From IMG/VR virus record IMGVR_UViG_3300036715_002050, positions 1 through 64,000 of that record: a stretch of 64,000 nt of DNA; one strand, written 5' to 3'. Each line of letters begins with the position of its first letter. The stretch's first letter is position 1. The position numbers and the translations under genes are program-made. Below, piece by piece: positions 1,463 through 19,352 of the stretch. This DNA comes from a virus. A model generated the notes under the pieces. That model was given only the letters and a program-made list of their open reading frames with translations. It was not told where the DNA came from and searched no databases.

Positions 1463-1509
1463 GGTAGTCCTTTGTCCAACAAGATTATGGCGCAAAGGAC
1501 TGACTGACT

Positions 1510-1543: not shown

Positions 1544-1546
1544 TGG

Positions 1547-1815
1547 TTATTTGTGGGCTAGACGAATCCATCTTCTACTTCCACAATCGCTGATTTTATC
1601 CATTGCTTGTGGATCTTTGTCAAGTTTTGCTTGATAAGCGTTTTGTTGAGCTAAAAGCGGATTTAGTTTAAAATTCCGCTCTTTGCAAATACGTTTAAAT
1701 TTATTAACATCTAATCCATATTTTCACACAGCATCTTACGAGTAACACCTTTTTGTCTCTCCTCAAGTATTTGATTAATCATCTCTTCGGATAAGTCATA
1801 GGTTTTTCTAGTCAT
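1547..1815 (-). pseudogene. Small gene with HTH-like look, broken by one missing base
   Basis: From an ATG at 1815 the frame reads 34 codons (MTRKTYDLSEEMINQ…) to a stop at 1711. The next frame continues without interruption (KYGLDVNKFKRICKERNF…) to a stop at 1547. The span is 269 bases; one extra A in the run at 1721-1724 would give a single 89-residue protein. The region around KGVTRKMLCE(K)YGLDVNKF has the rhythm of a helix-turn-helix unit, and the protein is basic. Base composition is more AT-rich than in the flanking structural genes. It has its own predicted promoter and is bracketed by terminators, as in a moron or a remnant of a selfish element. The break may be a sequencing error or a real mutation. 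Function unknown. Confidence 0.5.
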
Positions 1816-1821
1816 GCCACC

Positions 1822-1850
1822 ACTATAACACATGAGCCGCGCAAACACAA
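1822..1850 (-). promoter_or_regulatory. Predicted promoter of the small island gene (leaderless)
   Basis: On the minus strand TTGTGT (1845-1850), a 17-bp spacer and TATAGT (1822-1827) form a sigma70-like promoter. Only 6 nt separate the -10 hexamer from the ATG at 1815, so transcription would begin at about the start codon. The -35 match is weak (3 of 6). Confidence 0.4.
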
Positions 1851-1884
1851 AATAAAACGGCTGGTCCTGTACAGGACCAGCCGT
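1849..1884 (-). terminator. Intrinsic terminator after the major capsid gene
   Basis: A perfect 28-bp palindrome (1857-1884) centred on CTGTACAG is followed on the minus strand by a T-rich stretch (TTTTATTTTG). It lies 28 bases after the capsid gene stop and probably ends the morphogenesis transcript. Confidence 0.8.
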
Positions 1885-1911
1885 AAGTTATTGATTTAAT
1901 TCAGGAATTAA

Positions 1912-3315
1912 TTAAAGATTTCCAATCAGGTTATCTACCAACACGTTCTTGCGTGGTTCGAACATAGCCAACGTGCAGAAACGGAAGTGGATTTCGCTGG
2001 ACGTCAAGTCTTGGATACCGACCTTCTTACGGGAGTAAGGAGACAATTCCGGCATCTTCATCGTATCAGCCGACAACATGAATCCCGTTACGAACCCAGG
2101 AAGCTTGTTACCCAAGTCCGTGAAGACCGTGGTACCTGCGCCGGAGTTAGCTACCTTGCCGATGAACTTAATCGTAGAAGCAGCGCCGGAAGCAGTGGAA
2201 CGATAGACGTTGAAGTAAGCTACGCCGCCCGTGCCTGGGGGAGTAATCGTCACGGTGACTTGGTTCGCGTTCGTGGCCACAGTGATGCTGGACGTGGCGG
2301 ATTGTACGGATTCACCGATTTGGTTGACGCTGGTCACGTAGTATTGGAATACCGTACCTGCCGTGAAAGCGGTCGAACCTGCAGCTTGCGCTAGAGCGAT
2401 GGTCGATGCAGCAGGACCGTTGCTACGAGCGCGTTGTGGCTGGGTCTTAGCACGCAAGAATTGGGAGGCTTCCAAGCTTACTTCGCCACCGGCTACCCAG
2501 TTCTTACGCACGTCTTGACCAACAGCCGTTTGTGGGCTAGAACCTAACACGTTACGTTGGTTCACGGCTTGAGCTTGCGAGAACGCCGACAAGGTAATTG
2601 GATCAATGATCAACTTGTCCGGGCTACCGAAGTTCAACTTCGCACGCAAGTGAGCGTTTTCAATCGTCAACTGCGTCAAAATCCCGTTGCCAGGGATTAC
2701 GACAGATTGGCTGGACCCGTATTCGGAGAACATCAAGTCCTGGGTGTTGCTGTCCGCGTCAGACTGACGGATCTGAGGATCGATGCCCAACATGTTGGGC
2801 AACTTCGGGATGGCTAGCTGGTTACCATCGAACACGCCCGTGTTGCTGAAGTCGGCCTTACCACGGAACAAGTCCAATTCGATATCAGCAGACAACTTGA
2901 TTGCGGCGTCGGAGGCTACGCGGTCTTCTGCGCGCTTACCGTCAACCGTGTCAATCATGTTCGCAGCATCGGTCACACGACGGATCGTGGTGTAGAAAGC
3001 CATCGGCACCACGGCACGTACGTAGTCAGAGTCATCGTACTGTCCAGCAACACCTTCAGGCTGCGCTGAACCACCAAACGTACCATAGCTTAGCTGACGG
3101 TTCCATTGGAACGTTAGAGCCTTGCAAGGCATGGTGCTTACTTCCTTCTGCAAGATCAAATCCTTGCTTTGGAAGGTAACATTGCGCATTTGGATGTCCA
3201 AATTTTCAATGTTAAGTGCTGCACCTTGAGAGTACAAAGAAGGGGTGCTACCATACGTACCCGCTTCCAACGTTTTTCTTAGATTTGCAATTTCTGCAGA
3301 AAATGTATCGGCCAT
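1912..3315 (-). CDS. Major capsid protein with inserted Ig/FN3-like domain
   Basis: This 467-residue protein is the probable major capsid subunit, expected to have an HK97-type fold. The evidence is its place after portal, protease and scaffold-like genes, its length, a helical N-terminus (ADTFSAEIANLRKTLEAG) of the kind often removed by prohead protease, and a C-terminus of the type ending in a receding EPRKNVLVDNLIGNL tail. Residues of roughly 310-415 (AGTVFQYYVTSVNQIGES… NVYRSTASG…) look like a fibronectin III or Ig-like beta-sandwich inserted between the P-domain-like part and the C-terminus. Such domains decorate some large phage capsids. A strong ribosome site (AAGGACTCAAC) precedes the ATG, and an intrinsic terminator follows the gene. 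Capsid is the best reading; a capsid vertex paralogue is the alternative. Confidence 0.75.
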   Translation of the reverse strand: MADTFSAEIANLRKTLEAGTYGSTPSLYSQGAALNIENLDIQMRNVTFQSKDLILQKEVSTMPCKALTFQWNRQLSYGTFGGSAQPEGVAGQYDDSDYVRAVVPMAFYTTIRRVTDAANMIDTVDGKRAEDRVASDAAIKLSADIELDLFRGKADFSNTGVFDGNQLAIPKLPNMLGIDPQIRQSDADSNTQDLMFSEYGSSQSVVIPGNGILTQLTIENAHLRAKLNFGSPDKLIIDPITLSAFSQAQAVNQRNVLGSSPQTAVGQDVRKNWVAGGEVSLEASQFLRAKTQPQRARSNGPAASTIALAQAAGSTAFTAGTVFQYYVTSVNQIGESVQSATSSITVATNANQVTVTITPPGTGGVAYFNVYRSTASGAASTIKFIGKVANSGAGTTVFTDLGNKLPGFVTGFMLSADTMKMPELSPYSRKKVGIQDLTSSEIHFRFCTLAMFEPRKNVLVDNLIGNL

Positions 3316-3338
3316 TGTTGAGTCCTTTCCTAGTTACG

Positions 3339-3365
3339 ACGGGTTAAAGCGGGCGGTTAACCCGT
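3339..3365 (-). promoter_or_regulatory. Hairpin in leader of the capsid gene
   Basis: A perfect 9-bp stem (arms 3339-3347 and 3357-3365) lies between the scaffold-like gene and the capsid ribosome site. There is no T run on the minus strand, so it is not a typical terminator. It could be an RNA-stability or processing element that sets capsid mRNA level. Confidence 0.3.
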
Positions 3366-3369
3366 TTGG

Positions 3370-4263
3370 TTACTTGGTTAATAGTGCAGCAAGCTCTGGA
3401 GTAACAACTTCACCAGATGAGTTCATAAAGATGTTGATTCCTTGACGTTCAGCCTTGGTTAGAGGTTGGGCTATTACTTTGTCCAACTTCGCACGCATTT
3501 CTTGCTTCGTCATGTTAGACAAATCAACCTTGTCTTCAGACTTAGCTAAAGGAGCCGCCACAACAGCACGAGCCGGTTCCTGAACGAAAGTCTTCTTCAA
3601 AATTGCAGTCACGTCTTCAAAGTTCTTCTTCAACGAAGCGATTTCTTCGCGTAACGCTGCTGCTTCTGACTTAGCCATACCGTCTCCTTCTTCGGGCGCG
3701 GGTTCGGCGCCAGGTTCACCAGCAGCAGGAGCTTCCGTTCCTGCAGCGTCCATCGGTGGTTGAGCCATGGAAGCGGCTTCTGCAGATTCTCCGGCAGGTG
3801 CTCCGCCGCCTAATCCTTCAGCAGCAGCGCCACCCATCATCCCTAGATCGTCGCCATCGCCGTCACCTTGAGACATCAAAGGCACTAGGACAGCCATCAT
3901 TGCTTCAATGTGATCTCGGAAATCTTCGCGGGACAATGACGCGTAATAAGAGTGCAAGTCTTCTGCGGCTTCGGGTGCTGCTCCGCCGCCATCCATACCT
4001 GCACCGCCATCGGGAATTCCTTCGGCTGGTGCTCCGCCGTCGTCTGCTCCACCATCTGTCGCAGATGGTTCTGAAGGCTTCTCTTCGGCTGGAGCTTCTT
4101 CTGGTGCCGGGGCGGGCTTGTCGTCTTCCTTCGCTAACTTTTCAGGCATCTTGCCTTTTTCAGCTTTCTCTAAAGTCTTATCGGAAGAAGCTTTGGCAAT
4201 TTGAATTGCAACGCCTTCAACTAGCGAAAGAAGATCCTTTTCGGTGTATCCTTGTTGAGCCAT
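3370..4263 (-). CDS. Probable scaffold / prohead core protein
   Basis: This 297-residue protein sits directly upstream of the capsid gene. Residues about 40-200 are highly acidic and low in complexity (Ala, Pro, Glu, Asp, Gly), including runs such as PAPAPEEAPAEEKPSEP. A short ordered helix lies near 103-130 (LHSYYASLSREDFRDHIEAM). A predicted coiled coil follows (EAAALREEIASLKKNFEDV, about 200-222), and the C-terminus is basic and helical (KQEMRAKLDKVIAQPLTKAE). Acidic, disordered, coiled-coil proteins beside the capsid gene are typically internal scaffolds cut by the prohead protease. No enzyme motif is seen. The role is inferred from composition and position only. Confidence 0.5.
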   Translation of the reverse strand: MAQQGYTEKDLLSLVEGVAIQIAKASSDKTLEKAEKGKMPEKLAKEDDKPAPAPEEAPAEEKPSEPSATDGGADDGGAPAEGIPDGGAGMDGGGAAPEAAEDLHSYYASLSREDFRDHIEAMMAVLVPLMSQGDGDGDDLGMMGGAAAEGLGGGAPAGESAEAASMAQPPMDAAGTEAPAAGEPGAEPAPEEGDGMAKSEAAALREEIASLKKNFEDVTAILKKTFVQEPARAVVAAPLAKSEDKVDLSNMTKQEMRAKLDKVIAQPLTKAERQGINIFMNSSGEVVTPELAALLTK

Positions 4264-4292
4264 GATTGGATCTCCTTTCTTAAGCCAGTTGA

Positions 4293-4766
4293 TTAGGTGG
4301 TTAGCATGCCTGGGAATTGCGTCGAGTCGAAGGTCGATACCGGAACGCCCGTGATACCAGCAACAGAAACCGCCACAGTGTTAGCCGTCAAATACAATTC
4401 GGTCGAAGCTCCAAACGCGGTAAACAAACCGGTTAGCTGGAAGAAGTTGGCCGCCGTCAACAAAACAACGTTGGCGATAGTCGAAGTCTCCAACACAATT
4501 TGGACTTGGTGAGGACCGTAGGACGTTTGCGTGATACCCAACGCGTCAACTACCGGACCGGGACCACCTGAATATACCGGACCTACCGCTTGTGGCTGGA
4601 TACGTACGAAAGCCGATTGAGAACCAGCCGTGCCTGCACCGATTGCTAAGGTTGGGTTACCGTTGGTATCAAAGCCTGCCGTCACAGCTAACGCCGACAA
4701 ACGTAACGCCAAAATGTCTTTAGCAACGCGCGCAATTGCTTGCGACTTTTTATCTGGAAGTGCCAT
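4293..4766 (-). CDS. Small virion protein, possible capsid decoration
   Basis: A 157-residue protein with a short basic helix at the N-terminus (DKKSQAIARVAKDILALRL). The rest is rich in beta-forming residues (Ala, Thr, Val, Gly), with a repeated alternating pattern such as ELYLTANTVAVSVAGITGVPV. It lies between the protease-region genes and the scaffold-like gene. A ribosome site (AGAAAGGATC) precedes the ATG. I do not recognise the family; a head decoration or minor capsid protein is the most natural guess from position and composition. Confidence 0.4.
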   Translation of the reverse strand: MALPDKKSQAIARVAKDILALRLSALAVTAGFDTNGNPTLAIGAGTAGSQSAFVRIQPQAVGPVYSGGPGPVVDALGITQTSYGPHQVQIVLETSTIANVVLLTAANFFQLTGLFTAFGASTELYLTANTVAVSVAGITGVPVSTFDSTQFPGMLTT

Positions 4767-4859
4767 TTATTTGATCCTTTCTTACAACATAAGTCGTTTA
4801 GAGCAGCGCGGTGCGCGGCGATTTACGTAAAGTCACAATATCCTTTACATAACAATAGA

Positions 4860-4887
4860 TTGCGGACCGGGCGATTTGGTTTATAAA
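4860..4887 (+). promoter_or_regulatory. Predicted promoter of the plus-strand cysteine-rich gene
   Basis: TTGCGG (4860-4865), a 16-bp spacer and TATAAA (4882-4887) form a sigma70-like promoter on the plus strand, inside an otherwise minus-strand operon. It would give a leader of about 23 nt before the ATG at 4917. Confidence 0.45.
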
Positions 4888-4916
4888 ACTTGAACAGATG
4901 TGTTAATCTGTTGCCC

Positions 4917-5228
4917 ATGAACGAAGATTCCAATAAAAACCCGTGCCCAAAATGCTCTAAACCGTGGTCCCGAAAGCTCTTTAATAAGTCACAAAAGTAT
5001 TGCCGAGAATGTGCCGCAGAATATGCCGCACAGTATTATGCAGACAAATGCGGGTGGACCCCGTGTGCTCAATGCGGTAAACGCCGTAAGTTAGATGAGT
5101 GGTCCAAATGCTCCAAGTGTGCACCAGTCCATAGATGCATTAAATGTGCCAAAGTCCTCTTAGCCATCCTGTTTTACGCAAATAGAAAGGTCTGTGTCGG
5201 GTGTTACCACCCAAAGACACAGACCTAA
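4917..5228 (+). CDS. Cysteine-rich zinc-ribbon protein on opposite strand
   Basis: From the ATG at 4917 this encodes 103 residues; a TTG at 4890 in the same frame is possible but would sit almost on the -10 element. Cysteines occur as repeated CxxC pairs (NPCPKCSKPW, KYCRECAAEY, TPCAQCGKRR, SKCSKCAP, RCIKCAK, VCVGCYH), enough for about three zinc ribbons. The basic content (about 20 Lys and Arg) suggests nucleic-acid or protein binding. The gene is oriented against the surrounding capsid operon, has its own promoter, and its stop codon lies in the base of a strong terminator. That layout fits an accessory gene or moron. Precise function unknown. Confidence 0.6.
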   Translation: MNEDSNKNPCPKCSKPWSRKLFNKSQKYCRECAAEYAAQYYADKCGWTPCAQCGKRRKLDEWSKCSKCAPVHRCIKCAKVLLAILFYANRKVCVGCYHPKTQT

Positions 5229-5235
5229 TTTTTTT
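5188..5235 (+). terminator. Intrinsic terminator overlapping the stop of the zinc-ribbon gene
   Basis: An 11-bp perfect stem (5188-5198 with 5216-5226) is followed by seven T (5229-5235). The descending arm encodes the last residues and touches the TAA, so coding sequence and terminator are merged. Confidence 0.85.
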
Positions 5236-5243
5236 GTGCATAA

Positions 5244-5665
5244 TTATTTAGGCGCTTGTTGTTTTGCGTAATTAATCATACGTCCAATATCGTCCGGCAG
5301 CCCTTCAGTTTCATATAAAGGGATGTGGTCGGTCATACCTAACGCTTCTGCCACTTTATGTGTACAATGACTACAATTGCCATTTGGCATAGACTGTATG
5401 TGTGCATCTAGCGGGTGGGGCTGAAACTGTGATTGAAGTTGATATTGTAGACCCTTTTTAGGAGCGAGCCTTTTTGGCGGAACTCCATTTGGAACATGTT
5501 TCCACATTAAAGCAGTTAGTTTATCACCAATCCCTTCATGTTTTTTATTTTGGATGTAATGTGGCTGTGCCACCGCCGGATCCATAACGGACATTCCACC
5601 ATTGTGGAAACCTGCTGCTAGCCAGTGTTCATCACGAGCGTCATCCAGAGCGCCATGGACAGCAT
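5244..5665 (-). CDS. Head-region CxxC protein, start disrupted by one missing base
   Basis: The uninterrupted ATG-started frame is 5244-5594 (116 residues). The same frame stays open and protein-like upstream (…DEHWLAAGFHNGG) back to the protease stop at 5667. An ATG at 5665 is one base out of phase: inserting a single G there gives M-A-V-H-G-A-L-D-D… and a 140-residue protein. The C-terminal half (PLDAHIQSMPNGNCSHC…) resembles the PLDGQITRDPHNQLYNCKHC segment of the neighbouring protease protein, with a CxxC pair followed by an Ala-rich helix. It may therefore be a paralogue of that protease tail. It sits directly after the protease gene and is probably a head-assembly protein. Function unknown. 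Confidence 0.5.
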
Positions 5666-5666
5666 C

Positions 5667-7619
5667 TTAATTGAACTTAGGCAAGGTTGGGTCGTGCTTT
5701 TCTAGCTTTTCTTTGGGCGCCGCTTTAGAAGTCTTACGCTTGATATCCAATGAACGCATGCGCAACACACGCGGATCAACTTTGACCTTGGGAGTCATTC
5801 GTTCGAAGTTTTCGACTATGTGCGAATCTTTCAAATTTGTTTTATCCGGGACTTCTTCCAACTTTTTATCGGACTTATCGGCTTTCTTGGCTAAAGCCGC
5901 TCCTTGCGTGCGCATCCCGGGCGCAGTTACCGCTACACCCGATCCAGCCGTTTCCGTCTTCCACATTGCCCCTTCTGCTGCGTCCGCTTGCATTTGGGCT
6001 TGGTCGTTACTTGAACCAATAACCTGTTTGGCAACATGGGCTTGTAAAGCATTTTGACAATGCTTGCAATTGTATAGTTGGTTGTGAGGATCACGGGTTA
6101 TTTGACCATCTAGTGGCAAAGGGCGACCTAAATTTTCTGGCTTGTAACGATCAATCCATTCCGGGTAGCGTGGATGTTCTGGTTCTCCTGGCGAAACAGG
6201 GTTTTCTGGAGATTGGTCCAGCAGTTTTTGCTGGACACCATTATGCATATCCAATCCCAAGGCGTGCAAGTTTTTAATCTTAGGATCGTCGGTGCGATTT
6301 AACCCGTCTCGATGGTGCTTTTTAGCAAAGGCATGTTCATCATACAGTCTTTGAAAAAGCTGTTGAGTTGACTCTCCGCTGTCACTGTATCCACTATTGC
6401 TAGTCGCAGTAGGCATAGACAAAATAGGCAAAGCCTTTTGCATAGGTGCGGGCTGCCCTTGGGGTGCTTGCGGGGTAGGTGGTTGTTGCTGGGCGTCTTG
6501 TTGCTGTTGCGCTGACTGCGCCACTTGCATCTGCGCTTTGGGTGACGTAGGGCTGGGCGTGGCACCTAACGACAACCCGCCCAGTGTTTGTACCGGCGAA
6601 ATCATCGAGTCCATTGGGTGATGCTGTCCCACTACCGAATCCGGGTGCGCATTACGGAACTTGTTTTTCAATTCCGACACCATGTCTTTTTCTACGAACA
6701 ATTGCGCAGCTTGTGGTGAGTAACCATGGCGTTGCGCAAACAACTTGGCCGCTTGACCAACGTGGTGCTCTGCTTTTGCTGCATGTTGCGTCGCTTCCAT
6801 GATGTGCTGGATTGGTTTGCCGTCCGGACCCAACTTTTGTTCGCCACCTGTTTGCTGATGGCGTGATTCGGCAATCTTTGCGGCCAACAAATGGTGGGCA
6901 GCAGCATTCACCAAAGAAGCATATTTTTGTTGGTCTGGATCAATGAATTCCATCGGTTCCATGAACTTCGCCAACAATCCCGGCTGAGAGAAGGTGTCGG
7001 AGTAATAGAACGGACTTTCGTACTTGGACAACACCACGTCCGCTGACGACTTGATCAATACGATCTTGGATTCGGGCGTCACTTCCGTTTTCTTATCTTC
7101 GTACACACCCGACACAGCCGCAGCATTGCACGGCTTAATCGTACAAGCCACGTGCTTTACCACGCAAGCCGTGATATTGCCGGACTTATCTTTTTCTAAG
7201 GTGTCTCCTTCCACAGAATACTGGATGCGGATTGGCAACCCACGCTTTTGGTAGTATCGGATGATAGCCGCAGTCTCTTGCGCTCCACGATGCCCTTCTT
7301 CGTCAAACAGTTCCCCGACGATATACAAAAAGGGCGCTTGGATGTAGTCCCAATAAGTCTTGATACGCTCGTCGTCACCGGCATCTTTCTTGGTGAAAAT
7401 CTTTTTGGCTTCCAAGATTTTACCAATCAAAGTTCCAAACGTGGAGCGCTCAGCCTTTTCGTCCGAGTCCCCCTCTTTCTTGCCGGGCATCACATGCTCC
7501 ACATTAAGCATGCCCTTCCCCTCCTCTAACGAAGAAATATCCATACCCTTCAAGGAGACTGTTTCGCCAGACTTATCCGGGATTTCCGGATTGGCGATTC
7601 CATCGATCTTCAAACCCAT
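5667..7619 (-). CDS. Prohead maturation protease with long C-terminal extension
   Basis: This 650-residue protein has an N-terminal serine-protease domain of the prohead (T4 gp21/U9-U35) type. A candidate catalytic His lies at 42 (GMLNVEHV) and the nucleophile Ser at 135 in RIQYSVEGD; the S-(I/V)-E-G context is typical for this group. Cys-containing TIKPCNAAAVSG follows near 160-175. Beyond about residue 250 the protein is helical, then Gln/Pro-rich (about 355-400). A CxxC segment (YNCKHC) lies in the C-terminal third, with a Lys-rich tail. The extension may serve as built-in scaffold. It lies between portal and capsid genes, as expected. In the family the protease cleaves scaffold and capsid N-termini. 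Assignment is good; the exact catalytic triad is inferred. Confidence 0.7.
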   Translation of the reverse strand: MGLKIDGIANPEIPDKSGETVSLKGMDISSLEEGKGMLNVEHVMPGKKEGDSDEKAERSTFGTLIGKILEAKKIFTKKDAGDDERIKTYWDYIQAPFLYIVGELFDEEGHRGAQETAAIIRYYQKRGLPIRIQYSVEGDTLEKDKSGNITACVVKHVACTIKPCNAAAVSGVYEDKKTEVTPESKIVLIKSSADVVLSKYESPFYYSDTFSQPGLLAKFMEPMEFIDPDQQKYASLVNAAAHHLLAAKIAESRHQQTGGEQKLGPDGKPIQHIMEATQHAAKAEHHVGQAAKLFAQRHGYSPQAAQLFVEKDMVSELKNKFRNAHPDSVVGQHHPMDSMISPVQTLGGLSLGATPSPTSPKAQMQVAQSAQQQQDAQQQPPTPQAPQGQPAPMQKALPILSMPTATSNSGYSDSGESTQQLFQRLYDEHAFAKKHHRDGLNRTDDPKIKNLHALGLDMHNGVQQKLLDQSPENPVSPGEPEHPRYPEWIDRYKPENLGRPLPLDGQITRDPHNQLYNCKHCQNALQAHVAKQVIGSSNDQAQMQADAAEGAMWKTETAGSGVAVTAPGMRTQGAALAKKADKSDKKLEEVPDKTNLKDSHIVENFERMTPKVKVDPRVLRMRSLDIKRKTSKAAPKEKLEKHDPTLPKFN

Positions 7620-7621
7620 AA

Positions 7622-9634
7622 TTACTCCTTGAATAGCTTCTTCAACAATTGACGCGTTGCTTCTACTTCCGCTTCAGACTTGTGGAATTCTTTGGAAATA
7701 GCTTCCAAACCACCCATCACGTCGTTAAACGAAATGTCCTTAGAAGAGACTTCTGAAACCGGATACGATTGCTTACCGGATTGGTCGCCCTTTTGAGCCT
7801 GGTCGTCCCCGGCCTCTTCCTTTGATGCTTGGTCGCCACCACCTGGCGCCGGTTGCTGTGCTTGCTGTTGCGCTTCGGCTTGCATCTGCTTGGCTTGCAT
7901 GTCCATCTGCTGCTTTTGCATGTCTAGCTGGTTCAAGAACTGAATCCACTGATACCAAAAGGTATTTTGGATAAATTGGTACTTCGGGTCTAACGCTGCT
8001 CCCTTAACCCCGAAGACTTCTTCCAAAATCACACCATAGGGCACGTAGTTTTCGATGATCCCCTTGATAGCCGGGTTCATAGGGAAGTTGCCACCCAGTC
8101 GGTCCGGCAACGCTTCTTTCTCCACCAACGAATAAAGCTCGTTCGGCGTCATGTGAAGTTGAGATTCGATTTGCAGACGTTGGGACTCTTTATCTTGGTC
8201 TACTTTGTCCAAGCCTAACAAATCCACGTAACAGATTTCCGCCAACTCTGGAGCGATCAACGGGAAAATACGGTGGTTGATGAAATCTTGTAAATCCAAC
8301 AACAAAGGTTTGATGCCAGCATCACGTGCTGCTTCTAGTTGGTAGGAATTGCTGGTTTCAGACAACGCTTGACTTTGCGTACCACGGCTCAAATAAGCGT
8401 ACCCGGGGATTTCGACTGGATCCATTTGGAATGCAGACAAAATGATGCGGATGTTGGAGTCATAAAGGTATTGGAACTCCATGTCCTTTTGGCCGGTGTC
8501 CAATGGTTGCCAATTGATTTCGTCGTCCGGACCGATGTTAAAAATCGGTGCGCGCCAAGCATTTTGAGCGCTATTGATAGATGCGTTAAAGTGCTGACGC
8601 AAGTCTTCCAAAGCTTCGTCGTCCACCGCAGATGATTTGATAACCATCATCCCTTTGGTAGCTCGACCGGACTGGAAGTACATCTTATTGTATGTCGTGA
8701 TGTTCAAATGTGTGATCACGTCATTGATTACTTTATCAATAGGCGTCGGTGGATACCCAACCAAGTCTACATTGGTTGTCGGGAACAAGTTGTGCACGAT
8801 CAACTCTTTGTCCGTGAACGCTTGCAACGGCTTCCCATTGATCACTTGGATGTAGGAGTATTCGTTTTTGCGCCATCTATCCAACACGATGGGCGCTACG
8901 ACATCTTCGTTGATTTTGCCGAAGATTTGGTCTAGAGTCTTGTTGGCGTTGTTACGGATGGCTTGCGCTTCTGACCCACCATGCGTAGCAAAGTAAATCG
9001 TACCGGAGTCGACCGGGCGAAATCTGCCGAAAGACTCTTGCTGTGTCGCCGCGTTTTTGCGCTGGATAATTTCTGTAGCAAAGCGACCGAACAACAAGCC
9101 GTCTTGAATAGACAAGCGCAAAAATTGTGGGAAGGTCATGTACTGATTGGGATTCAAATTGTCCAAATGTCCACACGTATATAACAACTTGGACGCTTTT
9201 TCGATCTGCTCCAAAATCTCCTTGCGCTTTTCGGACTTCAAGCCGCGTTCTAATTGCGGCTTGATCGTGATTTTGTACCCAAACGCAAAACGGTCTTTTT
9301 GAGGACGACCGAACATAGAGATTTGGTTAGCTCGGACTTGCAAAATGATAGCGATCAACGGGTCTTGTAAGGACACGCGCTTCAACAACACGTCGGGCAC
9401 CAAGTATTGCTTGGGTTGGTACACCGATGCATAAATGTTGATCAAGTTCGGATCTACTTCGAAAGCTTTACGGGTCGAAGATTGGATCTTGTAGTGGTTA
9501 GTTTGCTCGCCTACAATGAACTCTTTCAAATTCTTTTCCAAAGAAACAGATTCAAGCTGTGCAGCCTTGATCGACTCTTTGTCGTCTTTTTTTAAAGACT
9601 TTAACGCATAGTGAAATTTAGATTTTGGTGCCAT
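7622..9634 (-). CDS. Portal protein
   Basis: This 670-residue protein matches the portal (head-tail connector) family of large myoviruses. The N-terminal part contains the conserved stretch DPLIAIILQVRANQISMFGR. A helical and beta core includes FPQFLRLSIQDGLLFGRFATEI, VHNLFPTTNVDLVGYPPTPID and a stem/tunnel-like segment with GYAYLSRGTQSQALSETSNS near 440. The C-terminus holds a Gln/Met-rich helix (about 560-600, MQKQQMDMQAKQMQAEAQQQ) and ends with an acidic helix. It forms the dodecameric DNA channel at one capsid vertex. It is three bases upstream of the protease and two genes below the large terminase, the usual order. Confidence 0.88.
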   Translation of the reverse strand: MAPKSKFHYALKSLKKDDKESIKAAQLESVSLEKNLKEFIVGEQTNHYKIQSSTRKAFEVDPNLINIYASVYQPKQYLVPDVLLKRVSLQDPLIAIILQVRANQISMFGRPQKDRFAFGYKITIKPQLERGLKSEKRKEILEQIEKASKLLYTCGHLDNLNPNQYMTFPQFLRLSIQDGLLFGRFATEIIQRKNAATQQESFGRFRPVDSGTIYFATHGGSEAQAIRNNANKTLDQIFGKINEDVVAPIVLDRWRKNEYSYIQVINGKPLQAFTDKELIVHNLFPTTNVDLVGYPPTPIDKVINDVITHLNITTYNKMYFQSGRATKGMMVIKSSAVDDEALEDLRQHFNASINSAQNAWRAPIFNIGPDDEINWQPLDTGQKDMEFQYLYDSNIRIILSAFQMDPVEIPGYAYLSRGTQSQALSETSNSYQLEAARDAGIKPLLLDLQDFINHRIFPLIAPELAEICYVDLLGLDKVDQDKESQRLQIESQLHMTPNELYSLVEKEALPDRLGGNFPMNPAIKGIIENYVPYGVILEEVFGVKGAALDPKYQFIQNTFWYQWIQFLNQLDMQKQQMDMQAKQMQAEAQQQAQQPAPGGGDQASKEEAGDDQAQKGDQSGKQSYPVSEVSSKDISFNDVMGGLEAISKEFHKSEAEVEATRQLLKKLFKE

Positions 9635-9642
9635 AACGACCT

Positions 9643-10629
9643 TTATTCTACGCTGAACACAATAAGCTGCATAGAGTTTACCGTAGACTGGTTAATAACG
9701 CTTAACGAAAAAGCGTTACCGACCTTGATTAGAAACCCCACTGATCCTTGTGGAGTCAAAATGGGCTGGATGGTATTACTTACTCCCGAATCACCATTGA
9801 ATTGTACCACTGCCGGTTGATCGGTTTGCACCCACACAAATCTTTTGAATGCATTAAAGAACTGCATTTGGCTGGATGTAGGGACAATGCCACTTTCTAG
9901 TGGAATTGCCGACGATACGGTAGCTTCCACCCATTGCGGTGTAACTTGTGTGACCACATACGCCCCCCACGAAGCCGACGAAAAAGCACCCGATAGCAAC
10001 ATGGTGTCACCGATTTGAACACCGCTGCTAGAGAAGGCTAGTGCTTGGGACTGGGCTGTTACCGCCACCGTTTCAGCTACCCCCACAAAGGGAGCTTGAT
10101 AAGCTCGGATGCAAGTGATAAAGGTGGACGACTTGGCGATGATTTGCCACGTACCCTGGTTTAAGTAGCTAAAAGGACCTGTGGAGTCGCCCGTAGTAAG
10201 CCCGGGAACAAAAAAGATATCCCCCACCACACATGTGACAAACGAGCCTGCACCCGAAGCAATCGTAAACGTCGCGGTAGCATTGTTGTTGATTGTCACC
10301 ACCACGCTACACGCGTTCAAGTTGATGTTACGATCAGTGCGGAAGTTAGCTAGTCCGGCTGTAGTCCATCTGTAAGTGCTGTTTAAGACAGGGTTGATGG
10401 TGACAGCAAAAGACATGACCCCATCGATGCCAGTCGTGTCTACACCACTAAAAACGGACTTGGTGCCACTAGGAGGTATGGTGAACACCGCAGTCTGCGG
10501 GTTCGAACAAGTCATCCCTTGAATGACCTGCAAAAAGTCCGGTACGCGTTTACGTGGGTTAAATTGGTTTTGGGGGTCCAAAGCGACGGTCAAGTCCGCG
10601 TTGAAGTTTAGTTGTGTGCTTTGAGCCAT
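9643..10629 (-). CDS. Virion structural protein between terminase and portal
   Basis: This 328-residue protein is almost entirely beta-prone (Thr, Val, Ser, Ala, Phe), without charged helices or catalytic motifs. A repeated pattern of GDIFFVPG…, GDTMLLSGAF… and WQIIAKSSTFITCIRAYQ suggests tandem beta-barrel or Ig-like units. It starts MAQSTQLNFNADLTVALDP and is preceded by a ribosome site (AAAGGAATAAC). It lies between the large terminase and portal genes. A head-completion, decoration or neck protein is plausible; I do not recognise the family. Confidence 0.5.
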   Translation of the reverse strand: MAQSTQLNFNADLTVALDPQNQFNPRKRVPDFLQVIQGMTCSNPQTAVFTIPPSGTKSVFSGVDTTGIDGVMSFAVTINPVLNSTYRWTTAGLANFRTDRNINLNACSVVVTINNNATATFTIASGAGSFVTCVVGDIFFVPGLTTGDSTGPFSYLNQGTWQIIAKSSTFITCIRAYQAPFVGVAETVAVTAQSQALAFSSSGVQIGDTMLLSGAFSSASWGAYVVTQVTPQWVEATVSSAIPLESGIVPTSSQMQFFNAFKRFVWVQTDQPAVVQFNGDSGVSNTIQPILTPQGSVGFLIKVGNAFSLSVINQSTVNSMQLIVFSVE

Positions 10630-10671
10630 AGTTATTCCTTTGGTGGCAAAGATTACTTTATGACGATACCG

Positions 10672-12582: not shown

Positions 12583-13217
12583 TATTCGTCCTCATCCGGT
12601 TTGTCTTTACGTTTTGCTTTAGCGCTTTCTAGCTGTTTCAAAACGTCCGTTACAGACTCTTCGGCTTGCTGAATCGCCGGGACCGCGTTCGGCACTACAG
12701 TGATAGCTTCTTTACGTCCACGTTTATTCTCTACAACCACCTTGGCGACCTTGTCTTTCCCCGCCATCGTCTGGAACATCTTGGCGACCGCTGTGTATTT
12801 TTCCATGTCGTTTAAGTCCATACCTTGCAAGTCCGATTCGTCGCCCGACGCCAAATATCTTTTCAACTTGCCGCCCTGTAACTTATGCGTGGCTTTCATG
12901 TATGTCGACAAATATTCTACCGATTCACTAGCCGTGTTAATAAAACGGATCGACACGTTTTCCATGATCTGATTTAACGCTTCGTCCCGGCGATCAAACC
13001 AACGGAAACGCAAACAGGCATCGACCACGTGACCAAAAGTCACGTGGTCGTCATTTTCGTAGGCTGCTACGTGAATATCTTTTAACGACCTCCCCTGCAA
13101 GAACTGGTTGTACCAAGGGAGCGTCTTTTGCAACCCCATAGGCAGCCTCTTGTTCTCACGAAACGCCGCTAATGCTTCCGCTTCTAGTTCTGATAAATCT
13201 TCTTCACGTAGACCCAT
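12582..13217 (-). CDS. Protein coupled to terminase, possible small terminase subunit
   Basis: This 211-residue, mostly helical protein lies immediately upstream of terL with overlapping stop and start codons. It opens with an acidic helix (LREEDLSELEAEALAAFREN), has a central helical core and ends in a Lys/Glu-rich tail (ESAKAKRKDKPDEDE). Position and size fit a DNA-recognising small terminase subunit. The segment VTFGHVVDACLRFRWFDRRDE could include a DNA-binding helix pair. I see no diagnostic motif, so the call is contextual. A 12-bp perfect hairpin (13022-13050) lies inside the coding sequence. Confidence 0.4.
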   Translation of the reverse strand: MGLREEDLSELEAEALAAFRENKRLPMGLQKTLPWYNQFLQGRSLKDIHVAAYENDDHVTFGHVVDACLRFRWFDRRDEALNQIMENVSIRFINTASESVEYLSTYMKATHKLQGGKLKRYLASGDESDLQGMDLNDMEKYTAVAKMFQTMAGKDKVAKVVVENKRGRKEAITVVPNAVPAIQQAEESVTDVLKQLESAKAKRKDKPDEDE

Positions 13218-13618
13218 TAATTACCTCGTTTGAATTTCTTGGTCGGGACTTTTTTGTCCACCTTTTTAACCGTTTCCTTAACCGATTTTTTGGTCTTCTT
13301 GGGCGCGTCGGTGGCTGCGGGCGCTGCATAGGTGACGCACGTTGTCACGTCTTTACCCAACAACCATTTAATCGATGGCTGTAACAAGTTGAACATCTTG
13401 TCGAAGTGCTCACCCATGTCCAAGTTAGCTGGATATCGAACTGTTAACTCCTTAGTCTCTGCGTCATAGTCGAATTCCGGTGGCACCCTCAAATCGGGAA
13501 CCAACGCCATGAACCAGTAAGCCAATTGCACGAGTTGCAGTTCGTGGATCACCCCTTGGTGTACGGTCAAATCCCGCAACGACAACAGCTTCTTTTGGGC
13601 TTCAGTTAGTCCGGGCAT
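13217..13618 (-). CDS. Hypothetical protein with basic C-terminal tail
   Basis: A 133-residue protein with an N-terminal helical domain (LTEAQKKLLSLRDLTVHQG), a middle part with strands (ELTVRYPANLDMGEHFDK), and a strongly basic, disordered tail (KKTKKSVKETVKKVDKKVPT). The start codon shares a base with the stop of the next gene (TAATG), so translation is coupled. The tail suggests nucleic-acid contact, possibly in packaging or recombination, given the terminase on one side and an SbcD-like nuclease on the other. Family not recognised. Confidence 0.5.
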   Translation of the reverse strand: MPGLTEAQKKLLSLRDLTVHQGVIHELQLVQLAYWFMALVPDLRVPPEFDYDAETKELTVRYPANLDMGEHFDKMFNLLQPSIKWLLGKDVTTCVTYAAPAATDAPKKTKKSVKETVKKVDKKVPTKKFKRGN

Positions 13619-13959
13619 GATTCGTCACATCCAAAAACATCTTTTACGGTGGGAGCCTTGCGACCATCAAGCCACGTCCAAGTTTTATCGAATGAACCAT
13701 TAAAAACACCACTAAAATAAGTAATGACCGGGTCTAGCGGCGGATTGGTTTGGATCGTTCCCGGCCCCATGCGGGGCCACCACGGGTTGCTGTTCGGCCC
13801 AATTAAGTCGGGGGCAGGTGGAGTGATTTGATAAAGCTGCAGATCGTGGAAGGATGCTGCCACCAACAATGCTGGCAAATGCTTTGCCACTTGTTCTAGT
13901 TCTGTTGATTCACATTCTACCAAGCATTCTTTTTGTCCATTTTTAAAAGTTAGTTTCAT
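13606..13959 (-). CDS. Hypothetical protein, Pro/Trp-rich middle
   Basis: A 117-residue protein beginning MKLTFKNGQKECLVECEST, with a helix that contains VAKHLPALLVAASFHDL. A proline-, glycine- and tryptophan-rich centre follows (PNSNPWWPRMGPGTIQTNPP). A segment near the end resembles a WLDGRKAPTVKDVFG turn. It overlaps the next gene by 13 nt and the SbcD-like gene by 4 nt (ATGA), so it is part of one operon. No known family recognised. Confidence 0.5.
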   Translation of the reverse strand: MKLTFKNGQKECLVECESTELEQVAKHLPALLVAASFHDLQLYQITPPAPDLIGPNSNPWWPRMGPGTIQTNPPLDPVITYFSGVFNGSFDKTWTWLDGRKAPTVKDVFGCDESCPD

Positions 13960-15062
13960 TTAGTTAAGCTCCGGGTAATTACTTCACGAGCCTTGGCGGC
14001 TACGATGGTCATATCTACTCCATGTGTAGGAGTGTGTTGTGGTACGAACTTTTCGAAAGCTACCAAAATACCGTCGGACTCTTTAGCTGTCGTGCGTGTC
14101 TTAGCACGCGGATAGGTGCGGATGCGTACGCTCGACGGGATAACTTTTTTGCGTTGGCTAATATAGTCATGTGTCCCATACAGATCAACGACAATAGCAT
14201 TCCCAGCATCAATAGCGGCATGTAGCACCCCGTCGTCTAGTGGTTCTTCTTCACGATCAGCAAATGCCACCATTTTAGTGACGCAATGTTCTGTAGGAAA
14301 CTGACGTAAATCTTTTACCATTACCATTTCACGAGCGTCTACGGTATAAAGATGGATAAACTTTTCTTGGTTGCTGTCTAACACCCCACGCCATCTTGGA
14401 GAACCAACGTAATGCAACTTTCCTACGTCAGCATGGTTGTGGATATGTCCCGATACGATCTTTTCTTGTGGGACCAAGTTGGCGTCCGTACCGTCTTCAA
14501 TAGGGAAGCCGTTTTCGTAACGAGCGCCGTTAAAAGACTGGTGGCAAAAGACCATCCGTGTTTCTAACTGTGCGAACGTAGAACATGGCAAGTCTAAAGA
14601 GTAAATGGGTTGAGCGTACTTGTGGCACTGTAACAAGAACAAGTCGTTGCTGTGGTAGTACGGCAAAAATAGCATCCGGTCTTTGTGCCAAGGCTGGGTT
14701 ACAACTCGAACACGTGGATAACCAGCAAAAAAGTCCATAGATGTGGTGGAATTCACGTCTTTGGAATTCGCTTGGTCATGGTTACCAGCCAACAGTACGA
14801 TGGTGGCATCGGGACCACCGTGTCCGGCAATCTCGTCCAACCCCGCCGATAACGATCTGAGTTGCGTGGACCAAAAGTCCATCACATACGCATCCAAGAT
14901 GGCGTGGTTATGGGTTTGGTCGCCCATGAACACCACGTAGTCCGGAGTATGTTCGTAGCACAACTTCTGTACATAAGACATAAGGTTTTTGCACTCATCG
15001 ATCTCATTGCGAACGACGTGCATGTCCCCTATGACCAACACTTTTTTGAGTGACGTATCCAT
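13956..15062 (-). CDS. SbcD/Mre11-like recombination nuclease (T4 gp47 type)
   Basis: This 368-residue calcineurin-type phosphoesterase has the full metal-site set: D13 and H15 (IGDMHV), D48 (FMGDQTHN), N94-H95-D96 (AGNHDQ), H174 (FCHQSFNG) and H206/H208 (SGHIHNH). The family (SbcD, Mre11, T4 gp47) works as the nuclease partner of an SbcC/Rad50/gp46 ATPase in DNA end processing and recombination-dependent replication. The partner is present at 21406-23571 on the other strand. The gene is coupled to its neighbours (overlaps of 1 and 4 nt). Confidence is high for the fold and good for the gp47 role. Confidence 0.82.
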   Translation of the reverse strand: MDTSLKKVLVIGDMHVVRNEIDECKNLMSYVQKLCYEHTPDYVVFMGDQTHNHAILDAYVMDFWSTQLRSLSAGLDEIAGHGGPDATIVLLAGNHDQANSKDVNSTTSMDFFAGYPRVRVVTQPWHKDRMLFLPYYHSNDLFLLQCHKYAQPIYSLDLPCSTFAQLETRMVFCHQSFNGARYENGFPIEDGTDANLVPQEKIVSGHIHNHADVGKLHYVGSPRWRGVLDSNQEKFIHLYTVDAREMVMVKDLRQFPTEHCVTKMVAFADREEEPLDDGVLHAAIDAGNAIVVDLYGTHDYISQRKKVIPSSVRIRTYPRAKTRTTAKESDGILVAFEKFVPQHTPTHGVDMTIVAAKAREVITRSLTK

Positions 15063-15604
15063 TACTTAAACTTTAGTTCGCCGGGACGTTGTGGTCCGCC
15101 AACAATGATCTTTGAATCGTTCAATCGCACACCACTTTGCTGAGTTAGAGTGCCGGGTGTAAGGTCATAATCGCCCGATTCCAAAGCGGTTTTCAACTTG
15201 TCTAACTCCTTTGCTAAATTAAAATCTTCAAGCGTAACGCTTTGGGCTTTTTGGATAGAGATTTGGTCTTCTATCGTGTCCTTCAAAACGTCTGCCTCTT
15301 CTATTAACACAATAAAGGCTGGATCGATTGGCATCAAAACGAATTCTGTGCCACCTAGTCGGTGACGCTTCTGCGCCCATGGCTGCAAGTTGCACTCCCC
15401 AAGCACGTAAAGCTTTGTGCCCGCACGCCACTGATCACAATCAAACAGCGTTACCACTTCACGCAGTTCACCTTGCTGGGTCTTCTTCCACTTAGGCTTG
15501 GCTTCGACCGGCGCTTCTTCTGTGGGCTCGGAGCCCTTCTTTTGAACGATTTCGACAGGGAACGGTGCAATCGCCACACGACCTGCAAAAGTTTTTGTTG
15601 TCAT
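15062..15604 (-). CDS. GroES/gp31-like co-chaperonin (probable)
   Basis: I chose the ATG at 15604 because AAAGGAAAACCT precedes it and an upstream start would overlap the sigma gene; this gives 180 residues. The N-terminal strand GRVAIAPFPVE resembles the first strand of GroES. After a charged, flexible stretch (about 20-45, a possible mobile loop) the segment GTKLYVLGECNLQPW and the closing EFVLMPIDPAFIVLIEE recall the GroES G-strand and its final LIMxxxDILAIVE motif. A C-terminal extension of about 75 residues is extra. A GroEL-like gene at 19360 supports a chaperonin lid, as T4 gp31 does for capsid folding. The similarity is by eye and moderate. Confidence 0.5.
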   Translation of the reverse strand: MTTKTFAGRVAIAPFPVEIVQKKGSEPTEEAPVEAKPKWKKTQQGELREVVTLFDCDQWRAGTKLYVLGECNLQPWAQKRHRLGGTEFVLMPIDPAFIVLIEEADVLKDTIEDQISIQKAQSVTLEDFNLAKELDKLKTALESGDYDLTPGTLTQQSGVRLNDSKIIVGGPQRPGELKFK

Positions 15605-15614
15605 AGGTTTTCCT

Positions 15615-16619
15615 TTAAATTCCAAAATGCGCTCGTAATAACTTTTGTTCAAACATCGGCAAACAATGCAAAGCACGAGTCATTTTTCTGTACACATCCA
15701 TTTTTTCTGATACCGCATCTGGTTGCACTGTCGTCGCTGATGGTGTTACATCTATCAATGATGGAGCACCCTCTTCTGTGTCGTCACTTTTACCAAACAG
15801 CGACAAGTGCGACGATGCAGACATTATATCTTGCACGTCGCTCTCAGTCAATGCGCAATTTTCGCCAATTTCTTGATTGATTCTATCAGCGGTTGCGGCT
15901 GCACTCAATCCGTCCTTTCGGCATTTGTTTGCTTTGTAAATAATTCGACGATCATCGGGTAGGAAGTGCACCATCGTAGAAGAGTATTCTTTGATGTGTC
16001 CTGCAGTGATGCGCCCGATGATAACAGAACGAAACACCTTGGTGAATGGTGGCACAAACTTGTCGATGGCTGTCAACAACCCTTCTTGGGCGATCTGGAT
16101 CAGATCCATGTACTCCAAGTGACTGTGGGGAGTAGTGTTCCAAAACTTCTTGCATCTGTTCAACGCCAGCGGCGCGTTAGTGCGGGCAATAACCATCCGT
16201 TGACTTTCTACTTTTTGGTAGATCGCCCACAACGACGGCAAGTTCTGCGGGGTGACTTTTAACCGCTTTAACCAAAAAGACAACATGGGGTGATTGATTC
16301 TGTAGGTTGATAGTGCCGTCAAATTCCGCTGTTGCAAGTGACCGGTAATTTCCGACGAAAACTTGGTTTGACGCTCTCGGAAATACGGTCGAGCCGCCAA
16401 GATATTACATTTTTCTTTGGTGATGAAGTCCACGAACACGCCATAGGCGGTATCTGCTAATTGCAACGCGATAAGTTCGTCAACAAAGTCGCGTTCGTAC
16501 TGGATTAAGTCCATAACTTGGGTGCGTTGGAGTTCAAAAAACTCTTGGGACGAGAAATCCAACCCCATTTTGGCGATATCTTGGTCCAAGTATTGTAAAT
16601 AGTTATTGTAGTTAGACAT
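15615..16619 (-). CDS. RNA polymerase sigma factor, lacks region 4.2
   Basis: This 334-residue protein carries sigma70 region 2: NAPLALNRCKKFW (148-160, 2.1), MDLIQIAQEGLLTAIDKF (171-188, 2.2) and FRSVIIGRITAGHIKEYSST (196-215, 2.3-2.4). A middle part with ADRINQEIGE may correspond to region 3. The protein stops at RALHCLPMFEQKLLRAHFGI, which matches the first helix of region 4 only, so the -35-binding helix-turn-helix is absent. T4 late sigma gp55 similarly lacks a standard region 4 and reads only the -10 element. It probably directs host RNA polymerase to phage late promoters. The stop is 10 nt before the next start, so the truncation is unlikely to be a frameshift. Confidence 0.75.
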   Translation of the reverse strand: MSNYNNYLQYLDQDIAKMGLDFSSQEFFELQRTQVMDLIQYERDFVDELIALQLADTAYGVFVDFITKEKCNILAARPYFRERQTKFSSEITGHLQQRNLTALSTYRINHPMLSFWLKRLKVTPQNLPSLWAIYQKVESQRMVIARTNAPLALNRCKKFWNTTPHSHLEYMDLIQIAQEGLLTAIDKFVPPFTKVFRSVIIGRITAGHIKEYSSTMVHFLPDDRRIIYKANKCRKDGLSAAATADRINQEIGENCALTESDVQDIMSASSHLSLFGKSDDTEEGAPSLIDVTPSATTVQPDAVSEKMDVYRKMTRALHCLPMFEQKLLRAHFGI

Positions 16620-16627
16620 AAATTCCT

Positions 16628-18139
16628 TTACTTAGACAAAAACCTGATGCCGTCATAGATGCTGTTGTAAATGTCCACACGTTCTAACGCGTGGCGATGT
16701 AAAATGAAGTTGTGTGGTACATCAAAGTCAAAAACATAGAAAAATTCTTTGCCGGGCGGCTTGCGCAGAGCACGACCAATACCTTGGGACAACGAAATGA
16801 AAGACTTACCTCCGCGTAAGTAGATCAAAGTCTTCACCGGCAAAATATCGGTACCCATACCAACCGCACTGGTGCCAATCAAGATAGGTGCAACGCCGTC
16901 GTTGAACGCTTGAACGATTTTGCCAGTGTCGTCCGACGCATACTCCTTGGGTACAGACTTCAAATGCTGCTTGGTAAGAGTACCATGAGCAAACAGCACC
17001 GAATGTTTGAGAAGAGGCAACAGCTTGACGAACTGGTCGATCTCTTCGATCAAGATCAAGACTTGATGCTGGTGCTTGGACACAGCTTCGTTAGCCAGGT
17101 CCGCAGCACGTTGGAGTACCAGCGGATTGTTGTAGAAGAGTTCGCGGGTGATGGTGTCGGGATCTTTAGACGACAAGGTTTTGTGAGCGTCGACAGAGAT
17201 CATGCGGAAACGCGGTACGGGCAGCCACCCTTGGCGTACGCCTTCCCGCACGTCCATAGTGTAAACGATAGGTCCTATTAGCCCCGCCAAGACACTTTCG
17301 GTACCATCCCCGCGTGTCTGTGTGCCCGATACGAAATAACGATAGGGCACGGCGTTTAGGAGGTTTGTGGCCACGTTCTCGAAAGTAGTAGCAGCGATGG
17401 TGTGGGATTCATCTACCAAGAACAGCCCGGCTTGCGACAGGTGCGTCCACTCTTCTGTTCCTTCCACGATGTTGTTCAGCGAAGCCGCAATCCCGATGGT
17501 GATTTGGCGGTCTACTTGTCTCGACCCATCTCCTAGCAACCCCACTTTGTTTTTGCCGAACCACTCACGGAAGTTGACCACCAACTGCTGCGCAATGTTT
17601 GCGGACGGAACCATCACTATCGTGCGCAACCCGTGACGCTTTACTAGCTCAGCCAAGATCCGACTCTTCCCTAGAGCTGTAGCTAACGATATCGACCGTG
17701 GCGCCACTAAATCGGAACGACTGTTCATCAAGGCTTCGACCGACTCTGTTTGATAGGGACGTAAGTCGAATGGCTTCTTAGCCCAAACAAAGTGAGTCGC
17801 GTCGGTGGGTGGATAGGAGAAGTTGATTTGGACTACATGGTTCACACAAACTTTTTTCAACTCTTCTAAGTAACCGCTGTACATCCTTACACGACCATCT
17901 TTTAAGACTTCTACCAACGTGTCCACGATCTTGGACTTCAAGTATTCGCAAATATGGTCGTAACCGGGTATGAAACGTGATCGTGGGGTATTGCGGAACT
18001 TATTGTACGCAAATTCCTTAGAAGTATTCTTGTATTCGTACTTCTTCTTCAACAAGACGATTTGGTCCGCATCTAGACCTTCGATGTAGACGTAAGTCGG
18101 GTCATCTAGTCTCAAAACAATTGGTTCTGTAATAGTCAT
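16628..18139 (-). CDS. SF2 DNA helicase, UvsW-like
   Basis: This 503-residue superfamily 2 helicase has an N-terminal domain of about 120 residues, a Q-motif-like LRPYQTESVEA (126-136) and a Walker A variant ATALGKS (153-159; a Leu replaces the usual Gly). It also has Walker B DESH (243-246), motif III-like SGTQTR and motif VI QGIGRALRKP. This order matches T4 UvsW and related branch-migrating and R-loop-unwinding helicases used at the switch to recombination-driven replication. It is the first gene of the leftward operon and has its own promoter just before the ATG. Confidence is high for helicase, moderate for UvsW orthology. Confidence 0.82.
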   Translation of the reverse strand: MTITEPIVLRLDDPTYVYIEGLDADQIVLLKKKYEYKNTSKEFAYNKFRNTPRSRFIPGYDHICEYLKSKIVDTLVEVLKDGRVRMYSGYLEELKKVCVNHVVQINFSYPPTDATHFVWAKKPFDLRPYQTESVEALMNSRSDLVAPRSISLATALGKSRILAELVKRHGLRTIVMVPSANIAQQLVVNFREWFGKNKVGLLGDGSRQVDRQITIGIAASLNNIVEGTEEWTHLSQAGLFLVDESHTIAATTFENVATNLLNAVPYRYFVSGTQTRGDGTESVLAGLIGPIVYTMDVREGVRQGWLPVPRFRMISVDAHKTLSSKDPDTITRELFYNNPLVLQRAADLANEAVSKHQHQVLILIEEIDQFVKLLPLLKHSVLFAHGTLTKQHLKSVPKEYASDDTGKIVQAFNDGVAPILIGTSAVGMGTDILPVKTLIYLRGGKSFISLSQGIGRALRKPPGKEFFYVFDFDVPHNFILHRHALERVDIYNSIYDGIRFLSK

Positions 18140-18145
18140 AACCGA

Positions 18146-18174
18146 ATTGTAACATTCTTTTACGACAACGTAAA
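18146..18174 (-). promoter_or_regulatory. Leftward promoter at the divergent region (leaderless)
   Basis: On the minus strand TTTACG (18169-18174), 17-bp spacer, TACAAT (18146-18151). The -10 ends 6 nt before the helicase ATG at 18139, so the mRNA should start at or next to the start codon. Confidence 0.5.
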
Positions 18175-18564
18175 GAGGTGTTACGTTCGACCGCCACCGA
18201 CACTACGCCTTAAACAACTGCCCGACACGTCGTACTACAAAAGCTTGTAATCGTCTTGGAATTGGATTGCACAAAGGCGTTTCGCTGTTGTTGAACTGAA
18301 AGACGGTGAAGTCTTTGATAAGCTTTTGAAAAACGTTTCACAAGCGGGAACAGCGAATTGCACGTCGGTGACGAAGCGATGTATGGTGTTAACGAAGTCG
18401 AACCAGCAAGCGGCCTTGGGGCCGTCCGTCGAAGAAGCAGTTTACAAATATGCTGTTTTGGTGTCAAGTGAAAACGTAAGTAGATCGACGATTCTTCGTA
18501 AGTCTTTGTTTTTGTTGACGTTAACGACCCCTCCCTAAGAACCACACAGGCGTCGTCGGCTAGG
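18175..18564. other. Divergent intergenic region, no intact gene
   Basis: This stretch separates the two diverging operons. No frame on either strand gives a convincing complete gene. On the plus strand two out-of-phase segments look protein-like (about 18251-18390 with VELKDGEVFDKLLK, and about 18340-18430 with HVGDEAMYGVNEVEPASG). On the minus strand one frame reads NVNKNKDLRRIVDLLTFSL, a TAA, then a Phe-rich segment (WFDFVNTIHRFVTDVQFAV). The ORFs present, such as 18210-18545 minus, lack a natural composition. It may be a decayed gene, a gene obscured by base-call errors, or a regulatory or origin region. I cannot decide between these. Confidence 0.35.
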
Positions 18565-18593
18565 TTGACCGTTCCGTTCTGTTGTAGTATGGT
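18565..18593 (+). promoter_or_regulatory. Rightward promoter at the divergent region (leaderless)
   Basis: TTGACC (18565-18570), 17-bp spacer, TATGGT (18588-18593). The -10 ends exactly 6 nt before the ATG at 18600. The -35 is a 5 of 6 match to the sigma70 consensus. It should drive the chaperonin and SbcC operon. Confidence 0.55.
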
Positions 18594-18599
18594 GGTGAG

Positions 18600-19352
18600 A
18601 TGACTGATTCCAAGAAGAAGCCGCGAGGAAGCCTTCGTGAATTATTGCGCAACGCTGAAAATCGACCCGTGGCTGTGCCGGTTGTTCCGACTTTGACCAG
18701 GGAGCGCGTGGAAAAACTGCTCAAAGAAGGTGACGCATTGCGTCGAGAAGTAGAACGCCGCACCGCTCCAATGACTGGCCGCATGGGTCCGCCATACAAT
18801 CCGACCAAGATCACTCCGGAAGGGAAGTCCACGATCCAACATATCCCTGTAGACCAATACTCTTCTACATCAAAAATTGTAGATGTACAAATAGACGTGC
18901 GGAAGCCTGTAAAGTTTGTGGCCGATCCTACCAAGAGTCCGCAAGAAAACGCTTTGCATATGACGCGTGAGCAGTGCTTGGATATGTTTGATCAGACCAA
19001 GGAGGTGGTGTGGTTGACACTATCCTTAGTTAAGTTGGAAAGCGTGGGGGCTAAGTTTGTACCAGAAGATATCGGGACGACATTTCCGTTTGACAAGTAC
19101 ATGCGGGACCATGCGGTCGTAACAGCTTTGTTGCGTGCAGAACACGAAGCTGCATGGAAGGAGTGGCGTCGGTGGTGTAGTGGTGGAACCATTAACCAAC
19201 CTTACGACGTATGTTACAATAACGTCGTTCCTTTTATGGAAAAGCTACGTGACCACGTGTTAGTTGTGTACGGTAAGTCATGTGACTTTGATGTTAAAAC
19301 CTTGATGACTACGGTGGCCAAAGAGCGCCGAGAATTTTTCGCAGAAGAGTGA
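18600..19352 (+). CDS. Hypothetical protein, first gene of rightward operon
   Basis: This 250-residue protein starts with a basic disordered tail (MTDSKKKPRGSLRELLRNAE) and a helix (RERVEKLLKEGDALRREVER). A proline-rich linker follows, and from about residue 120 there is a helical domain with several Trp and Cys (REQCLDMFDQTKEVVW; AEHEAAWKEWRRWC). It is the promoter-proximal gene, 7 nt before the chaperonin gene, and may be an early or regulatory protein. Family not recognised. Confidence 0.55.
   Translation: MTDSKKKPRGSLRELLRNAENRPVAVPVVPTLTRERVEKLLKEGDALRREVERRTAPMTGRMGPPYNPTKITPEGKSTIQHIPVDQYSSTSKIVDVQIDVRKPVKFVADPTKSPQENALHMTREQCLDMFDQTKEVVWLTLSLVKLESVGAKFVPEDIGTTFPFDKYMRDHAVVTALLRAEHEAAWKEWRRWCSGGTINQPYDVCYNNVVPFMEKLRDHVLVVYGKSCDFDVKTLMTTVAKERREFFAEE

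Follow-up and report, generated by a model that had tools for sequence, protein, structure and literature searches.

A probably leaderless helicase operon in a phage related to Myxococcus phage Mx1, and recurrent start-proximal promoters in its relatives

Introduction

Leaderless transcripts are known for many genes of the Thermus phages phiYS40 and P23-45. For bacterial genes, a TANNNT box lying about 12 bp upstream of the start, together with the lack of a Shine-Dalgarno sequence (SD), is the criterion for TA-led, that is leaderless, genes (Zheng et al. 2011, PMC3160421), and passages of PMC3160421 and PMC9031893 give the cI mRNA of phage lambda as leaderless. Kasugamycin leaves the translation of leaderless messages intact (PMC5230787). 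A search of the literature for leaderless transcripts in myxophages found none. Leaderless mRNA is already known, and the sites described here are a recurrent new set of that kind.

We analysed bases 1-64000 (the window, 64,000 nt) of a 137,415-bp virus record, for which an original prediction had proposed three promoters placed so close to an ATG that their mRNAs would be leaderless.

Results

An Mx1-related phage with two divergent operons

Judged by gene content and synteny, the record is an Mx1-related phage and was placed with Myxococcus phage Mx1. It encodes a major capsid protein, portal, terminase, DNA polymerase III alpha, ribonucleotide reductase, GroEL and SbcCD; identity to Mx1 is 42% for GroEL and 41% for the helicase. 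The leftward block runs in the order helicase, sigma-like gene, terminase, portal and capsid genes. Its operon is headed by an SF2 (UvsW-like) helicase gene without SD (16628..18139, minus strand). The frame has no start codon upstream of its ATG at 18139, which was aligned with the N-terminus of the Mx1 helicase. On the opposite side, a gene for a 250-aa protein (18600..19352, plus strand) heads the rightward operon, with GroEL next, from 19360. The helicase and 18600 sites are thus a divergent pair between the two blocks, and this control region matches, by synteny with Mx1, the Mx1-like layout in which the helicase and sigma-like genes lie opposite the GroEL operon. A 111-aa ORF (18210-18545) was considered as a gene and dropped, as no relatives of it were found.

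The second gene of the leftward operon (15615..16619, minus strand; SD AAGGA) follows the helicase directly and encodes a sigma-factor-like protein with a weak Sigma70_r2 (sigma-70 region 2) match. This order is conserved across the group, and the Mx1 counterpart is annotated "putative sigma factor".

Some other features of the record were noted. The DNA polymerase III alpha gene, annotated whole in Mx1, is split here between ORFs 32118-35141 and 36086-37348 (plus strand), with ORF 35104-36186 between them. The ends at the junction have matches to intein splicing domains, at 922-993 of the N half and 12-45 of the C half, and the arrangement looks like a split intein or a fractured gene. Of the 36 tRNA genes at positions 64001-104000 of the record, one has a CTA (amber) anticodon. 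TAG closes none of the 42 high-scoring genes with a stop (34 TAA, 8 TGA) versus 12 of the 186 called genes with a stop; suppression or recoding of TAG in the record is possible. The motif TTTGTTGTA is present at about 85-97 kb of the record, ten times on the plus and once on the minus strand, where 0.6 would be expected on each; most copies immediately follow tRNA 3' ends, and it is perhaps a tRNA trailer element. We had considered it as a phage promoter that would give the 18600 gene a 14-nt leader, and dropped this idea because of its position after the tRNAs.

Three boxes, and the number expected by chance

All three -10 boxes end 6 nt before an ATG and have a -35 at a 17-bp spacer, with coordinates and spacers exactly as first described. 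A TANNNT hexamer occupying -12 to -7, about 12 bp before the start as in TA-led genes, is found at each of them. To what extent the pattern is unusual was estimated with a bare version of it (-35 of at least 3/6, N17, TANNNT, N6, ATG), every ATG being counted. The window contains four such patterns, versus 4.0 +/- 1.9 in shuffled sequences, and the 137-kb record eight, versus 7.7 expected. Since these counts are at the level of shuffled sequence, the bare pattern is not in excess, and it was dropped as evidence. The resemblance pointed out between two of the boxes, TATGGTGGTGAG and TATAGTGGTGGC, is correct (9 of 12 letters are common, 5 of them -10 letters), and adds little. The unusual point in the window is that two of the sites are at the first genes of divergent operons.

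The helicase promoter site

The helicase site has a -10 box TACAAT (18146..18151, minus strand), ending 6 nt before the ATG and preceded by a TG extension (18154-18153), and a -35 box TTTACG (18169..18174) at a 17-bp spacer. With TGTTACAAT and TTTACG at this distance, it qualifies as a sigma-70 extended -10 promoter, and a score as high as that of TACAAT is reached by only about 0.1% of genomic hexamers. An SD of at least 4 nt, typically AAGGA, precedes 145 of the 186 called genes; the helicase is among the 18 in which not even 3 nt match an SD.

About 290 nt upstream, on the same strand, lies a competing promoter-like sequence, TTGACA-N17-TAAACT (18439..18467), which matches 10/12 positions and is closer to consensus. 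The close boxes might then be chance A/T-rich hexamers and the true promoters lie upstream, for instance at 18467-18439, so that the helicase mRNA would have a leader without SD. The presence of this sequence and the chance-level pattern count in the window both speak for such a reading.

The close box goes with the first position in the operon

Direct searches of viral contigs with the helicase and the 250-aa protein gave no match, and a first search with a helicase alignment a single remote one; broader helicase and GroEL alignments succeeded. The GroEL alignment search yielded 78 phage loci (IMG/VR), most with the same divergent block. The comparison covers about 60 distinct relatives, which are distant (helicase about 40% identity).

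A -10 box at 5-8 nt from the start was found for 31 of 127 first genes of divergent operons versus 34 of 521 other genes, as counted on gene calls made by us, in which SD starts are favoured (Fisher test, 5e-8; this p-value and the next are optimistic, because the loci are related to one another and so not independent). Close boxes were rarer on the rightward side (9/64). For the helicase, whose starts were set by homology, a close -10 was present in 18 of the 39 loci in which the gene counts as first (no AAA-ATPase gene found ahead of it), as against 1 of the 23 in which it follows such a gene (p=5e-4). In those 23 loci the operon opens with the AAA gene; 15 of these genes have an SD, and all 8 without SD have a -10 at 6-7 nt. 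The close box therefore tracks the first position in the operon, not the gene. A second set of loci, obtained from helicase-alignment scans after removal of upstream sequences already seen, gave 18 new close-box cases and none in the ten loci where the helicase is second; no close -10 was found at 14 of its 29 SD-less helicase starts.

Do these boxes have the character of promoters? We aligned 34 of them. They had been picked only for the score of the hexamer, its distance from the start and, the added 18600 site of the window excepted, the absence of a 4-nt SD. Positions that had not been selected proved informative: 28 boxes have G at -14 and 23 have T at -15, and a -35 of at least 4/6 was found at a spacer of exactly 17 bp in 10 of the 34, versus 0-5 at other spacers. 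The unselected TG and the -35 peak at 17 bp argue that the close boxes are promoters and not an A/T-rich start context. In the second set, 15 of the 18 cases had G at -14 and 13 had T at -15; the -35 at 17 bp stood out less there (at least 4/6 in 2/18).

The TG, the -35 peak, the position-specific recurrence in relatives and the absence of the box when the helicase is second all go against the chance-hexamer reading, which we now regard as quite unlikely. From the recurrence of close box, TG and 17-bp -35 in relatives, we conclude that the helicase mRNA very probably has no leader, and the close-promoter feature of this phage is probably real and used. Sequence, position, lack of SD and recurrence are direct observations; the 5' end itself we infer from them.

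Two layouts in one operon

Taking the best extended -10 for each first gene revealed two layouts. Among SD-less first genes with a promoter, the -10 lies at 4-7 nt in 24 of 27; among SD-led ones, it lies at 15-31 nt in 12 of 14. On a helicase tree, leaderless and other states interleave, with at least seven changes on well-supported branches. The window helicase is the longest branch, so that its own neighbours are not represented in the tree. What is unusual is that the start of one operon has changed repeatedly between the leaderless and the SD-led state.

A side observation concerns the helicase-GroEL intergenic region of six loci (L047, L055, L057, L061, L065 and L053), which contains paired outward TGATAT boxes (ATATCA...TGATAT). 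The arms are 0 to about 25 nt apart, and where they overlap, the divergent promoters could exclude each other.

Could the helicase promoter be read by the phage's own sigma-like protein, and not by host sigma-70, which would make the operon a middle or late one? The conserved place of the sigma-like gene as second in the operon is in keeping with this, as are the paired TGATAT boxes of one clade, often without a clear -35. However, TGn-TATAAT and TTGACA at 17 bp are features of host sigma-70, the close box is no genome-wide feature, and the promoter motif in its Mx1 version (CGCTATA) showed no enrichment across the Mx1 genome. We consider a phage-specific reader unlikely, and host sigma-70 remains the preferred one.

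The sites at 18600 and 1815

The plus-strand site has the best -35 of the three, TTGACC (5/6; 18565..18570), at 17 bp from the -10 box TATGGT (18588..18593), which ends 6 nt before the ATG at 18600. About 0.5% of genomic hexamers score at least as well as TATGGT. The box lacks a TG extension, another -10 register (TAGTAT) stands at 9 nt, and a weak GGTG 5 nt upstream of the start leaves the no-SD status ambiguous. A homologue of the 250-aa protein was searched for and none was found. For these reasons the proposal of a leaderless mRNA, well supported for the helicase by its relatives, is no more than plausible at 18600, where the mRNA would be either leaderless or with a leader of a few nt.

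The third site is the weakest. Its -10 box TATAGT (1822..1827, minus strand), with a TG extension at 1830-1829, ends 6 nt before an ATG at 1815, and the -35-like TTGTGT (3/6; 1845..1850), at a 17-bp spacer, overlaps the tail of an upstream terminator. This intrinsic terminator (1857..1884, minus strand; -23.5 kcal/mol, z -7.1) closes the capsid unit just upstream of the promoter, and a hairpin with a T-run (1509..1544, minus strand) would end a short unit downstream. With a strong terminator before it and the hairpin after it, a separate short unit would be driven from 1822-1827. The ORF that follows (1711..1815, minus strand) stops early, after 34 codons, and a protein-like reading goes on in another frame, which points to a small gene that has broken down, or else to an indel in the assembly. 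Hence the promoter claimed at 1815 is believable, and translation of a functional protein from it is not, the frame being broken.

It may be, then, that the helicase site is the sole leaderless promoter, the 18600 gene having a short leader with GGTG as its SD and the 1822 box being a coincidence in front of a decayed ORF. This would fit the missing TG, the GGTG at 5 nt, the TAGTAT register and the lack of a homologue at 18600, the break in the 1815 ORF, and the smaller share of close -10s on the rightward side. Against it stand the 5/6 match of the 18600 -35 at 17 bp, and the TG extension of the 1822 box behind a strong terminator. We hold this restriction to the helicase to be a real possibility, if not the one to expect.

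Discussion

The explanation that we favour, and think likely, combines a leaderless helicase promoter, two switching layouts, a partner at 18600 and a small promoter at 1815. A sigma-70-type extended -10 promoter at 18146-18174 would start transcription at the A of the helicase ATG. The resulting mRNA, heading the leftward block, would be leaderless and presumably initiated by 70S ribosomes, the remaining genes of the block using mostly ordinary SD initiation. The promoter would be read by the sigma-70 polymerase of the host, and the sigma-like protein, encoded next, may then alter promoter use. Across the Mx1-related group, the promoter would have switched several times between the leaderless position and one about 10-20 nt farther upstream, with an SD-bearing leader. 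The 18600 site is probably the divergent partner, with a leader of 0-3 nt, and at 1815 a small promoter, probably genuine, would drive a decayed ORF.

If this is correct, these phages form a natural series, with the start of one conserved operon leaderless in some members and SD-led in others, and so a testbed for the use of leaderless translation during infection. Promoter placement might even serve as a switchable control of operon translation in this phage group, a speculation that we find improbable. If true, 70S translation of the first gene would go on despite impaired SD initiation (host shutdown, anti-SD cleavage), and the helicase-sigma-like block would stay running under such conditions.

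Phage operons outside lysogeny control would also join a short list of leaderless examples. Like phiYS40 and P23-45, the phages considered here are large and would have leaderless genes outside lysogeny control; unlike them, they would have few such genes, all of them first genes, and the phages are unrelated. The likeness to lambda cI is that of a phage mRNA beginning at its AUG and, as proposed here, made by host RNA polymerase. In contrast to cI, a lysogenic repressor, the helicase heads a large gene block, with a layout that is found repeatedly in a phage group and switches within it. With TA-led genes (PMC3160421), all three sites share the position of the box, and the helicase also the lack of SD; TA-led genes were described in cellular genomes, whereas here they would be a few first genes of an otherwise strongly SD-led phage. 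The closest system is Mx1 itself (OR576727, PMC10720576), which has the syntenic helicase-sigma-like operon, divergent from GroEL. Unlike in the window, the AAA gene is first in Mx1, with a leader and the SD GGAG, and the helicase is second, with an SD.
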